Of a DNA stretch of 13,771 nt, positions 4,705-13,771 are shown one piece after another. How positions within the stretch are numbered: the stretch's first letter is position 1; each line of letters starts with the position of its first letter. Location: contig JAUYGW010000199.1 of the NCBI GenBank assembly GCA_030690245.1, forward strand, positions 1-13,771. The letters are read 5' to 3'. Both the position numbers and the translations under genes were made by a program. Origin of the DNA: Gallionella sp. GTDB lineage: Bacteria; Pseudomonadota; Gammaproteobacteria; Burkholderiales; Gallionellaceae. Under the pieces are notes generated by a model that ran no database searches, was not told the DNA's origin, and worked only from the letters and a program-made list of their open reading frames with translations.

Positions 4705-4964
4705 TTGAACCACGAAGGGCTGATAGAACTACTAGCCATTCCACTAGGCGACCAAAGAACGTTCGCCAAGTGGCTGGTTAACGAAGAACGCGAAGAAAAA
4801 CAGAAATATCAACCTTAAAACCTCAGTTCAAGCCACAGAGTTCACAGAGAACACAGAGAATGTCAGGGTTTATCCGCCTTTCGTGCTCCCACCAAAAAGG
4901 TGAATGGACTTCTTGCTATAACCGTTTGGTTTTACTCTGTGAACTCTGTGTTCTTCGTGGTGAA
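4705..4964. repeat. Dyad element B (composite) between pgl and glgP
   Basis: This is a mosaic of 9-nt units. The outer left part starts TTGAAC plus CACGAAGGG (4711-4719), is interrupted at 4720-4780 by a palindromic mini-element, and resumes with ACGAAGAA and CGCGAAGAA up to 4797. An inner left arm (4827-4860) has CACAGAGTT, CACAGAGAA and CACAGAGAA. The right arm (4935-4964), in reverse complement, reads CACGAAGAA, CACAGAGTT and CACAGAGTA, combining the outer unit type with the inner one. The core (4861-4934) contains a CACC / GGTG hairpin around five A residues (about 4890-4903). It fills most of the 387-nt gap between pgl and glgP; the rest holds the candidate glgP promoter. Confidence 0.75.
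4720..4780 (+). repeat. Palindromic mini-element, copy 1 (61 nt), inserted in dyad B
   Basis: From CTGAT to GGTTA this matches the inverse of 6727-6781 in glk; the first 21 nt agree at 19 positions and the last 16 at 14. Predicted fold: outer stem ACTAG (4731-4735) with CTGGT (4774-4778), a CCATT bulge, a middle stem CCACT (4741-4745) with AGTGG (4769-4773), an A-A mismatch, an inner stem GGCGA (4747-4751) with TCGCC (4763-4767) and an 11-nt loop. Deleting 4721-4780 joins C4720 to ACGAAGAA and restores an unbroken run of 9-nt units, so it looks like a late insertion. Confidence 0.75.
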
Positions 4965-4987
4965 TTTTTTGGGTTATCCGGTACTTT

Positions 4988-5683
4988 TCACCGGCCCGGC
5001 AATGCGGCGCGATCGAGATGCCACTCGGCGGCCGCAACGCGCGCCGCAGGCAGGGATTTTCCCAGCAATATCTGCTCCAGCGCATCGCGCTTCCCCGCAC
5101 CGGCCACCAGGAAGATGCGCTGCCGTGCCGCATTCAATGTGCCCAAGCCCAGTGTAACCCGCTCGGCGGGCGGCTTCGGGGCGTCGAATACCGGCACGGT
5201 CGCCGCCATGCTGCCGGTTGCCGGATTGCCCGGGAACAGGCTGGCGATATGCCCGTCCTCGCCCATGCCCAGCAGCACCAGATCCAACGGCGTAGCTTGC
5301 TCCAGCACCGCCGCATACCGGGCGGCAGCCTCGCGCGCGCCCAGTTCAGCCGGAATGGCGTGGATATTGGCCGACGGGATGGCGACCTGCTCCAGCAGGG
5401 TCTCGCGAGCCATGCGGTCGTTGCGCCCGGCATCTCCGGCTGGCAGGCAACGCTCGTCGCCGAAATAAACCTGTACATGCGCCCAGTCGACAGACAGGTG
5501 GCGCAGTTTTTCATAGCAACGGCGCGGCGTTTCGCCGCCGGCCAAGGCGAGATGAAACACGCCGCGCGCCGCAATCGCCTGCGCGGCCAATTCCGCAATG
5601 CGTTGCGCGACCGAGGCGCTCAACCCTTCCGGATCATCATGCACAAAGACGGCCTGTGCATTCGGCAAATCGGCGATATTCAT
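4988..5683 (-). CDS. pgl: 6-phosphogluconolactonase, DevB/Pgl type
   Basis: It hydrolyses 6-phosphoglucono-delta-lactone to 6-phosphogluconate, the second step of the oxidative pentose phosphate pathway, in the cytoplasm. The protein has 231 residues, a normal size for the family. It shows the glucosamine-6-phosphate isomerase/lactonase fold motifs: ALAGGETPRRCYEKL (46-60), YFGDERCLP (73-81) and LLGMGEDGHIASLFPG (137-152), the last containing the acid and histidine residues used in catalysis. The frame extends 14 codons upstream into dyad C. The ATG at 5683 was chosen because AGGGTGA lies just upstream at good spacing and because homologous-looking sequence starts there. It sits between glk (157 nt upstream) and glgP, and both gaps are filled by dyad elements. 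Confidence 0.94.
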   Translation of the reverse strand: MNIADLPNAQAVFVHDDPEGLSASVAQRIAELAAQAIAARGVFHLALAGGETPRRCYEKLRHLSVDWAHVQVYFGDERCLPAGDAGRNDRMARETLLEQVAIPSANIHAIPAELGAREAAARYAAVLEQATPLDLVLLGMGEDGHIASLFPGNPATGSMAATVPVFDAPKPPAERVTLGLGTLNAARQRIFLVAGAGKRDALEQILLGKSLPAARVAAAEWHLDRAALPGR

Positions 5684-5706
5684 TTGTGTCACCCTGGAAA
5701 ATACAA

Positions 5707-5843
5707 TTGAGCCACGGATGAACACGGATTTACACAGATGGACAATGGGTTACCTCTGCTTTTTTCAAGACCGTTTTGGTGAAATTTCAACCCTTCATAA
5801 CACGATATTTTATCCGTGTTCATCCGTGTAAATCTGTGGCTAA
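5707..5843. repeat. Dyad element C (10-nt-unit arms) between glk and pgl
   Basis: The left arm (5707-5741) is built of CACGGATGAA, CACGGATTTA and CACAGATGGA. The right arm (5811-5843), in reverse complement, reads CACAGATTTA, CACGGATGAA and CACGGATA. The arms match best when shifted by one unit. The core (5742-5810) is AT-rich, with a TGAAATTTCA palindrome near 5779-5788. The right arm overlaps the last codons of glk and contains its TAG stop. Confidence 0.8.
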
Positions 5844-6958
5844 CCAAGGTTTTTAGGGTTGTTGGCTAGTTGCGCGGCACGCAACGCCGCGCCGAACAGC
5901 GCGGCGCGGTCATTCAGGATCACCCTGACCGGCATGGCTTCGAGCAAGGGGCACATCCGGCCCTTATTCAGGAACGCATCGAGGAACGCGCCATCCTGCA
6001 ACAGCGGCAAAATTTTCGGTGCGATGCCGCCGCCCAGATACAGGCCGCCTTTGCTCATCATCTTGAGCGCGAGGTTGCCCGCTTCCGCCCCGTACAGACG
6101 CACAAACCAATCCAGCGTTTTGATGCATATCTTGTCGCGGCCGGACAATGCGGCGCTGGCAATGGCGGCCGCCGCATCGCCGTTGCGCATTTCCTCGGTG
6201 AGCCATTGCGGTACGGCAACGCGATGATAAAGGCACAGGAATTCATGCAGGCTGAGCAAGCCCGTGCCGGATACCACGCGTTCCCAACTGATATGCTGAT
6301 GCCGTTGCTGCAGGTAGCGCAGCAAGGACATTTCCAGTTCATCGCCCGGGCTGAAACTGGCATGCCCGCCTTCCGTCGCAAACGGGTGGTGGCATTGCCC
6401 GTCCCAAAACAAGCCCGCCTCGCCCAGGCCGGTTCCTGCGGCAATCACGGCGACATTGCCGCTGGCGTCAGGCGCACCGGCCTGCAAAGTCAGCAAATCA
6501 TCCGCGCCCAATGCCGGCAAGCCATAGGCAGTCGCTTCCAGGTCGTTGAGCAGGGTGCAATGCGCAAAGCCGAATTGCCGTTGCAAGGCATCGGCATCGA
6601 TACGCCAGGGCAAATTGGTGGTTTGCACCACCCTGCCCCGCACCGGGCCGGCGACACCGAAAGCCGCGTGGTTAAAGTGATACTCGCGTAGCGAGACCGC
6701 GTCCCTCTCTCCCGCAAGCGGGAGATAACCAGCAACTTGCCCGCTTGCGGGCTTAGTCGAATGGCTAGTTGTTCCATCAGAGTTAGGAGAGAGGGAAGGT
6801 TCGACATCCGCCAGAAACTCGCCGAGCAAGTCTGCAAATTTGGCGTAATCGCGGCTCGGATAATCGGCTTCACGCTCGATCCGCACTTGCGTACCGGTGA
6901 CTTCAACGGTCGCGAGGCGCGTCTTGGTGCCGCCGATGTCGCCTGCAAGAAAATTCAT
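5840..6958 (-). CDS. glk: Glucokinase with an in-frame repeat insertion
   Basis: It phosphorylates glucose with ATP to glucose-6-phosphate, feeding Zwf. At 372 residues it exceeds the 320-330 usual for proteobacterial Glk. Family marks: phosphate-binding GDIGGTKTRLA (7-17), FGVAGPV (100-106), the catalytic Asp139 in LLNDLEATAYGL, AAGTGLGEAG and EGGHASFSPGDE. The surplus of about 40 residues lies at about 53-93, between LADV and FNHAAFGVAGP; it is Ser/Gly/Pro-rich and is encoded by a nested palindromic repeat (6704-6796), with the reading frame kept. The ATG at 6958 was chosen because MNFLAGDIGGTKT is the normal family start. There is no Shine-Dalgarno sequence: the arm of dyad E touches the start codon, and the frame remains open upstream through that arm to a GTG at 7033. 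The TAG stop lies within dyad C. Activity of the enlarged protein is plausible, since all core motifs are intact, but unproven. Confidence 0.92.
   Translation of the reverse strand: MNFLAGDIGGTKTRLATVEVTGTQVRIEREADYPSRDYAKFADLLGEFLADVEPSLSPNSDGTTSHSTKPASGQVAGYLPLAGERDAVSLREYHFNHAAFGVAGPVRGRVVQTTNLPWRIDADALQRQFGFAHCTLLNDLEATAYGLPALGADDLLTLQAGAPDASGNVAVIAAGTGLGEAGLFWDGQCHHPFATEGGHASFSPGDELEMSLLRYLQQRHQHISWERVVSGTGLLSLHEFLCLYHRVAVPQWLTEEMRNGDAAAAIASAALSGRDKICIKTLDWFVRLYGAEAGNLALKMMSKGGLYLGGGIAPKILPLLQDGAFLDAFLNKGRMCPLLEAMPVRVILNDRAALFGAALRAAQLANNPKNLG
6704..6796. repeat. Nested palindromic repeat inserted within glk coding sequence
   Basis: The outer 10-bp stem CCCTCTCTCC (6704-6713) pairs with GGAGAGAGGG (6787-6796). 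Inside are two perfect hairpins, CTCCCGC / GCGGGAG around AA (6710-6725) and GCCCGC / GCGGGC around TT (6740-6753). The inner part, 6727-6781, is the second copy of the mini-element found in dyad B. Without it the outer part resembles the common proteobacterial CCCTCTCC...GGAGAGGG intergenic repeat (recalled, not searched). The block contributes about 40 codons without a stop in the glk frame. Confidence 0.75.
6727..6781 (-). repeat. Palindromic mini-element, copy 2 (55 nt), inside the glk insertion
   Basis: Read on the minus strand it runs from CTGAT to GGTTA and has the same fold as copy 1: an outer stem ACTAG / CTGGT, the CCATT bulge, a middle stem CGACT / AGTTG, an unpaired A region and an inner stem GCCCGC / GCGGGC with an AA loop. 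The middle stem differs from copy 1 at both sides of one pair (G-T here, C-G there), so pairing is preserved. Confidence 0.75.
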
Positions 6959-12536: not shown

Positions 12537-13310
12537 TTAAATTATTTGCAATCCGAATAAACGCATGAAATTCTCCGTGGTGCGCTGCCCCACTTCGCTG
12601 ACATCAATGCCGCGCAACAGGGCGATCTCCTCGGCAACATGTTTCACATACGCCGGCTGGTTAAGCTTGCCGCGAAATGGCACCGGTGCCAGATAGGGCG
12701 CATCGGTCTCGATCAGGATGCGCTCCAGCGGCACGCGCTGCGCGACCTCCTTGATCTGCTTGGCGCTCTTGAAGGTGACGATACCGGAGAAGGAGATGTA
12801 GAAACCCATCGCCAGCGCGGCCTCGGCCACTTCCCAGGTTTCGGTGAAGCAGTGCATCACCCCGCCTGCTTCGGCGGCATTCTCCTCCGCCATGATGCGT
12901 AATGTGTCCGCCGCCGCCTCGCGGGTGTGGATGATGAGCGGCTTGCCGCATTCGCGCGCGGCGCGGATATGGTTGCGGAAACGCGTGCGCTGCCATTCCA
13001 GATCGCCCTTCAGCCGAAAATAATCCAGGCCGGTTTCGCCGATCGCGATCACCCTGGGATGCTGCGCCAGCTCGACCAGGCGGGCGGCATCGGGATCTTC
13101 TACCCCTTCGTAATCGGGATGCACCCCCACCGAGGCATAGATATTCGGATGCTGTTCGGCCAGCGCCAGCACCTGCGGAAAACCCGCCAGGTTGACCGAG
13201 ACGCACAGCGCGGCGGCCACGTCGTTCTGGCGCATTTGCGCCAGCACATCGTCGATGTTTGCGGTCAGTTCGGGGAAGTTGAGATGGCAGTGTGAATCGA
13301 CAAATGGCAT
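12537..13310 (-). CDS. tatD: TatD-family metal-dependent hydrolase/DNase (YcfH-like)
   Basis: A 257-residue TIM-barrel hydrolase, a normal family length. The metal and catalytic residues are present: His7 and His9 in DSHCHL, Glu92 in GETGLDYF, His128 in IIHTRE, His153 in VMHCFTE and Asp203 in ETDAPYLAPVPFRGK. The family includes 3'-5' exonucleases for DNA and related hydrolases; the true substrate here is unknown. The usual RGKxNEP motif reads RGKLNQP. The ATG at 13310 has AGGAT 4 nt upstream. It lies downstream of holB on the same strand, as in many Proteobacteria, with dyad element D in between and no pilZ gene. The stop is 23 nt upstream of the tRNA promoter. Confidence 0.93.
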   Translation of the reverse strand: MPFVDSHCHLNFPELTANIDDVLAQMRQNDVAAALCVSVNLAGFPQVLALAEQHPNIYASVGVHPDYEGVEDPDAARLVELAQHPRVIAIGETGLDYFRLKGDLEWQRTRFRNHIRAARECGKPLIIHTREAAADTLRIMAEENAAEAGGVMHCFTETWEVAEAALAMGFYISFSGIVTFKSAKQIKEVAQRVPLERILIETDAPYLAPVPFRGKLNQPAYVKHVAEEIALLRGIDVSEVGQRTTENFMRLFGLQII

Positions 13311-13330
13311 GATTATCCTGAAAAAATTAT

Positions 13331-13469
13331 TTCACCACGAAGAACACGGAGATCACGAAGGTTTTTCATTTGGCATCCACTGGATTTTCTGTGCAGCCCA
13401 TCGTTCTTCTTCGCGTTCTTCGCGTTCTTCGTGGCCTTCGTGGCCTTCGTGGCCTTCGTGGTTACAAAA
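13331..13469. repeat. Dyad element D with expanded 9-nt tandem arm between holB and tatD
   Basis: The left arm (13331-13366) reads TTCAC then CACGAAGAA, CACGGAGAT and CACGAAGGT. The right arm (13404-13469) holds six consecutive 9-nt units at 13407-13460, which in reverse complement are CACGAAGGC three times, CACGAAGAA once and CGCGAAGAA twice. The arms are separated by a 37-nt core. It fills most of the gap between holB and tatD and is closest in unit sequence to element A. Confidence 0.8.
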
Positions 13470-13471
13470 GG

Positions 13472-13771
13472 TTATTCAAGCATGAGCTGGCGATAGGAGA
13501 ACAGCAGCGACTCCAGGAACAGCTTGGGGTTGAGCGTATGCCGCGCTTCGCGTTTCGCGCCTTGCAGGTAGCCTTGCAGCCGCGCCAAGGTTAATGGCGC
13601 GATGGACTCGACCAGCTTTCTGATGGCGGCCTCTTCGCCGGGATGGTAGCGCAGCTTGCCCGCCAGCTTCATCGCGCTCAGGTCGTAGCTCCATTGTTGC
13701 AGCCATTGCACGACCACGACCTGCTCGGTTTTCTGCAACGCCTCCGCCAGCGCGAACACGTCCAGCGCGGC
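13472..13771 (-). CDS. holB: DNA polymerase III delta' subunit, C-terminal end (partial)
   Basis: The last 99 codons of a minus-strand gene that enters from beyond the right edge; the frame is open to the final base. The residues end in LNPKLFLESLLFSYRQLMLE, the type of helical collar C-terminus seen in the clamp-loader subunit delta'. The segment ALAEALQKTEQVVVVQWLQQW, split here as ALAEALQKTE and QVVVVQWLQQW, also fits the third domain. The ATPase-like and zinc domains lie outside the window. The identification leans on the tatD neighbour as well as this C-terminal pattern. Delta' is part of the clamp-loading complex of the replicative polymerase. Confidence 0.78.
   Translation of the reverse strand, partial: AALDVFALAEALQKTEQVVVVQWLQQWSYDLSAMKLAGKLRYHPGEEAAIRKLVESIAPLTLARLQGYLQGAKREARHTLNPKLFLESLLFSYRQLMLE

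Follow-up and report, generated by a model that had tools for sequence, protein, structure and literature searches.

Two segments of a 13,771-nt stretch of DNA from Gallionella sp. (the window) are two copies of a palindrome, 54 or 60 nt in length, that is mobile and belongs to the GTDB genus Gallionella. Dozens of copies of this mobile hairpin of 54-60 bases are found per genome in many Gallionella-type iron bacteria. Insertion is seamless, occurs mostly between C and T, and neither duplicates nor removes any base. Copies sit in-frame inside housekeeping genes, and such residence is common in the element family. We assign a probability of roughly 0.55 to the reading that these copies form a non-autonomous, single-hairpin mobile family moved in trans by a single-strand transposase of the HUH/Y1 type.

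Copies in the window and their distribution

The window constitutes contig C194 of a metagenome-assembled genome (MAG G000; 2.34 Mb in 357 contigs, 82.5% complete). An earlier, sequence-only reading of the window had described a palindromic mini-element at 4720-4780 and 6727-6781. Both copies exist, with the shared ends, the change of a C-G pair to G-T, and the unrelated yet paired inner stems that had been claimed. Their edges required correction: analysis of the junctions places them at 4721-4780, with position 4720 belonging to the flank, and at 6726-6779. The features discussed below are:

4708..4720, plus strand: left part of the CACGAAG-type repeat that is the target of copy 1 (sequence)
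4721..4780, plus strand: copy 1, 60-nt form, intergenic between glgP-like and pgl-like genes (pattern, blastn, junctions, covariance model)
4721..4732, plus strand: leader of copy 1, TGATAGAACTAC (junction analysis; leader conserved in the alignment)
4733..4780, plus strand: hairpin of copy 1, TAGCCA...TGGTTA (alignment fold)
4781..4797, plus strand: right part of the CACGAAG-type repeat that is the target of copy 1 (sequence)
5840..6958, minus strand: glucokinase gene, frame open across the insert (PF02685 over ORF residues 29-388)
about 6678..6797, minus strand: 120-nt glk insert, a carrier repeat that contains copy 2, limits known to within several bases (300 versus 180 nt in 9 of 12 loci)
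6726..6779, minus strand: copy 2, 54-nt form, part of the glucokinase reading frame, where it encodes the peptide DGTTSHSTKPASGQVAGY (pattern, junctions, glk comparison)

Other repeats are present in the window. An inverted repeat at 5723-5838 (arms 5723-5744 and 5817-5838, 86% complementary) lies near the start of the pgl-like gene. Inverted pairs of the CACGAAG type, the same repeat type that copy 1 targets, occur at 1819-2020 and 13323-13480, near the glgA-like gene and the ORF at 12537-13310.

The source MAG and its relatives hold many further copies; the absence that would have refuted the earlier reading was not observed. The exact pattern ACTAGCCATTN{12,42}CTGGTTA matches it 43 times (19 forward and 24 reverse), and the reversed pattern, used as a control, does not match it at all. 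A blastn search of the MAG with copy 1 as query returned 42 matches, the last of which (E 5.24) is a chance match. A covariance model recovered at least 66 copies in the MAG and from at least 1 to at least 145 in nine other genomes; these counts are lower bounds, as 150 candidates per genome were scored. The exact pattern is present in 62 of 73 genomes of the same genus, the MAG included, at 0 to 89 copies each, and was found in none of the 48 genomes of other families in our first distribution survey. A wider draw at the level of the order detected the element in 13 of 399 genomes, including 6 of 7 Gallionella and 2 of 3 members of a sister genus (g50); none of three genomes from genera g51-g53 had it, and five genomes of three other families hold 1 to 7 copies. 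The element family is thus found mainly in Gallionellaceae. A pattern scan of genome contigs gave at least 118 stretches, and among the matches listed a few stand under other names (Treponema, Actinobacteria). Sixteen stretches in a viral collection fit the pattern, two of which (L320 and L326) look like real elements.

The element nests in itself and in other repeats. At one locus of the MAG (L004; C19, 461-3510), two inverted copies with identical 50-nt cores are separated by 1.2 kb, each enclosed in the same larger palindrome; they adjoin an ORF at 530-1372 (281 aa, DUF4357 domain). A longer, autonomous version of the element was considered and rejected, the orphan ends in the examined loci resembling decayed copies or chance matches. 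At the gathering threshold only three tRNAs in the window match Rfam, and neither copy of the element does. A literature search (most subscription journals lay outside its scope) found no paper on the element or on such repeats in Gallionella.

Fold and covariation

Covariation was analyzed with 61 copies of the 60-nt form, which align almost without gaps. In this alignment 94.3% of cells pair, against 81.1% in shuffled alignments, and two-sided change is seen in 11 of 17 pairs (6.8 when shuffled) and in 154 cells (47 when shuffled). The covariation score is 0.369, compared with 0.126 for shuffled and at most 0.081 for slid alignments. The proposal that pairing is kept through changes on both sides is therefore borne out by the covariation test that the sequence-only reading had suggested. 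The number of further pair types does not exceed that of the shuffles (26 versus 24.0, with 72 of 500 shuffles reaching 26). The inner stem was examined separately in the 50-nt core, with 119 distinct copies that include a false match from L117. Its six pairs form in 0.889 of cells versus 0.675 with shuffled 3' arms, the maximum of 2000 shuffles being 0.711. The inner stem is hypervariable yet paired, and the loop and ends are conserved. Copies were selected by their ends with the stems inside left free, so the conservation of the ends is partly a product of that selection.

The fold drawn previously needs correction in its outer part. Instead of the outer stem ACTAG/CTGGT with the bulge CCATT, the fold of the 61-copy alignment prefers TAGCCA/TGGTTA as the outer stem, with TT/C forming a small internal loop. 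For copy 1 this register has an energy of -10.2 kcal/mol, against -8.1 kcal/mol for ACTAG/CTGGT, and two copies show an A-T to G-C change in it; copy 2 alone folds nearer to the earlier drawing. The outer stem TAGCCA/TGGTTA places the end of the hairpin at the right end of the element, so that the element opens with a leader, TGATGNAACNAC, and closes with the 3' foot of the hairpin. The consensus of the 61 rows begins TGATGnAACnACTAGCC, and its ends read TGATG... and ...TGGTTA. Taken singly, copies are only moderately more stable than shuffled sequences on the element strand (z -3.10 for copy 1 and -1.65 for copy 2). On its opposite strand copy 1 is more stable still (-13.3 versus -10.6 kcal/mol, z -4.42); a strand-specific reading is therefore not favoured.

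Insertion sites and residence in genes

The start of the element was set by a motif that begins with T, which fixes that base by definition and leaves the flanking bases free. Among 254 distinct contexts the left flanking base is C in 222, the right flanking base is T in 240, and both hold in 208. After similar sites were collapsed, the C↓T junction (the arrow marks the junction) remains in 45 of 64 contexts. CT makes up 5% of the dinucleotides of the examined loci. The right end of the element is A↓T. Direct duplications at the junctions of the 254 contexts are not above those of shuffled flanks. When joined, the flanks read as ordinary repeats, such as CCTGAGCC↓TGTCGAAGG and CTCCCC↓TGACAAGGGGAG, and some are older copies of the element itself, nested at ACTAC↓TAGCCA. 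Copy 1 belongs to a minority target class, C↓A, its joined flanks reading ...gaagggc↓acgaag....

Empty sites are found in comEC. A 60-nt insert stands at catccgc↓tgttg in one locus (L388) and at the same place in another (L390), and the site is uninterrupted in 11 of the 20 orthologous loci, L391 among them (flanks 92% and 86% identical). Seven further loci carry other inserts at the same spot, so that 9 of the 20 (L388-L407) are occupied there, by in-frame inserts that vary from 24 to 102 nt. Each of the 20 gaps is divisible by three; their ends were extrapolated from BLAST and are less sure at low identity.

Two ideas about site choice were set aside. Hairpin loops do not appear to be preferred targets, a strict criterion selecting 40 of 180 sites and, among control CT sites, 195 of 900; base pairs across the junction showed no clear difference from the controls either (p 0.077). 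Nor was a replication-strand bias seen by GC skew (62 of 114 positive), a measure taken from skew alone with gene orientation uncontrolled.

The sequence-only reading had missed that copy 2 lies in-frame inside glucokinase, as the PF02685 match and the glk loci show. The interrupted protein still fits its Pfam family end to end. The span between two fixed motifs of glk is 300 nt in the MAG and in G045, 261 nt in G010, and 180 nt in 9 of 12 loci. At roughly the position that copy 2 occupies, the G010 glucokinase (L217) has a different carrier repeat alone, which encodes the peptide PHPNPLPKGEGT.

Pfam matches bracket the element in 18 of 30 sense ORFs that span one. By our interpretation of the Pfam names, these encode PolA, LeuRS, GlnE, MutS (twice, at different places), PheT, ComEC, an AMP-binding enzyme, a UvrD/PDDEXK protein, a transglutaminase, MetG, a HemN-type radical SAM protein, MoeA, GatB, CysS (twice), a Mur ligase and the glucokinase of G045. 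The remaining 12 fail the bracketing rule, and in some of them the element may precede the true start. Bracketing was seen in 1 of 10 ORFs of a second set (a PrmC-like one), in which L170 has a second stretch, and in 3 of 10 antisense ORFs; none of these fractions is unbiased, because the ORFs were chosen for length. In PheT of the MAG the insert occupies residues about 453-517 and is absent from G021 at 95% identity. Of 254 copies, 235 have a length divisible by three (60 nt in 176, 54 nt in 53 and 57 nt in 6), and two of the three sense frames of the element are open. Since there are so few length classes, these lengths may reflect descent rather than selection on each copy.

Movement of the element and its relation to known repeats

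The transposase TnpA_REP is described as acting on REPs in single-stranded form: it cleaves them at C↓T, a relative cuts at CA as well, and the attacking 3' base has to be C (PMC8266576). Since C↓T is the target in most contexts here, single-strand transposition in trans appears to be the best mechanism. The C↓T junctions with their C↓A minority, the folding and the lack of duplication together point to a reaction of the TnpA_REP/IS200-like type. We infer that copying passes through a folded single strand, as the sequence-only reading had suggested, and the seamless insertion at C↓T backs this. The folded strand would be recognised by an enzyme supplied in trans, most likely a single-strand transposase of the HUH/Y1 type with kinship to TnpA_REP. 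This enzyme would cut the left side at C↓T and the right side at A↓T, and the excised folded strand would be joined into another C↓T. Insertions would persist in tolerant parts of proteins, because nearly all copies are multiples of three and two of three sense frames are open.

A linked Y1/RAYT transposase, which the earlier reading had suggested looking for, did not turn up in the part of the genus's Y1 genes that was examined. In 40 Y1 loci the nearest element lay 238 bp away and six were within 1.2 kb; none of the Y1 loci in sets of 35 and 40, which partly comprise the same genes, is directly flanked by the element. Several RAYT subfamilies exist in Gallionella genomes (L272-L307), many flanked by different GTAG-type REPs. 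Among 29 RAYT genes whose flanks were examined by eye, most have their own GTAG-type repeats; the flanks hold repeats other than the element or none that we recognised. Across the 73 genomes the number of Y1 hits correlates weakly with copy number (rho 0.39), which may reflect only a general mobile load. Eight of these genomes with at least 5 exact copies, the single-contig G040 among them, have no match to PF01797, and nine have Y1 hits and no copies of the element. Further points weigh against this mechanism: the right junction is A↓T instead of C↓T, neither a strand bias by GC skew nor a preference for hairpin loops was seen, copy 1 folds more stably on its opposite strand, and further pair types do not exceed the shuffles. 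A bolder proposal, which we hold tentatively, is that an undescribed single-strand recombinase that is neither RAYT, integron integrase nor IS110 moves this one-hairpin element of codon-tuned length into essential genes of free-living bacteria; the family would then be an independent counterpart of the Rickettsia palindromic elements (RPE), still spreading in lineage-specific subfamilies.

Imperfect palindromes are corrected by template switching on a folded strand (quasipalindrome repair), and such repair, rather than selection for mobility, might keep the stems paired. This account, compatible with movement by a transposase, is a minor possibility that would suit an inner stem that varies and still pairs beside a conserved loop and ends; conserved ends and loop together with precise insertion, however, demand more than repair. 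An element that is itself immobile and is carried along within larger repeats, whether these recombine or move, is improbable. A CCCGC carrier adjoins the element on the right in 81 of 220 contexts, and glk and other genes hold carrier plus element, but the other 139 contexts lack that carrier and the comEC insert is the 60-nt element alone.

The folded hairpin and variable terminal stem recall an attC site, and an integron integrase scored over the cut-off in 6 of 12 genomes searched. Movement by such an integrase is nonetheless very improbable and was set aside: neither a RYYYAAC nor a GTTRRRY box occurs in a representative 60-nt copy examined together with its flanks, copies are scattered, and the copy-bearing genomes G000, G040, G021 and G225 have no integrase over the cut-off. 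Palindromes with perfectly paired attC-type R boxes were seen in 2 of 7 regions around integrase genes (L409 10515 and L411 2005). A MITE of a classical DDE transposon, or an element moved by an IS110-type recombinase, would likewise be short, multicopy and without coding capacity, and the IS110 family occurs in 8 of 20 genomes searched. Both have a very slight chance, as the element has no terminal inverted repeats and no target duplication above shuffles, and the search for IS110 gave no match in 6 of 10 genomes that bear copies but did in 4 of 10 without them. Least credible is a structured regulatory RNA kept for its function at each site; covariation is strong, but unrelated genes harbour copies in either orientation, relatives lack them at the corresponding positions, and the Rfam matches in the window are to tRNAs only.

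Several described systems resemble the element. Like the RPE, as described in PMC3767692, it is a palindrome that occupies housekeeping proteins in-frame; in both, a single gene can hold different inserts close together (here comEC), and PheT is a shared host (here in the MAG). The likeness is one of description: RPE are given there as 100-150 bp, whereas the present element has 54 or 60 nt, a C↓T junction and a Gallionella host. GTAG/CGTC REPs are similarly short, multicopy stem-loops, some of them intragenic in repair genes, and intragenic REPs are known from other genomes (PMC3733652); TnpA_REP cuts them at C↓T (PMC8266576), the sequence at most insertion junctions here, although the right end of the present element is A↓T. 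Unlike them, the element has a longer hairpin with a hypervariable inner stem, no RAYT gene found directly flanked by it and, in the 61-row alignment, no terminal unpaired GTAG or CGTC tag. IS200/IS605 elements and their miniature derivatives, as known partly from PMC8266576 and partly from general background, also insert without duplication at a short fixed target and have a hairpin recognised as a single strand. They differ in their Y1 transposase gene and a hairpin at each end, the present element having one hairpin in 54-60 nt and no coding sequence.

The hypervariable but paired inner stem provides a lineage mark for the copies. How palindromic repeats enter protein genes without breaking them is a long-standing question in Rickettsia. 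With a short unit, boundaries exact to the base, empty sites in relatives and dozens of host species, the mechanism of insertion and the tolerance of the reading frame become directly testable, as do the consequences for enzymes such as PheT, PolA or MutS.
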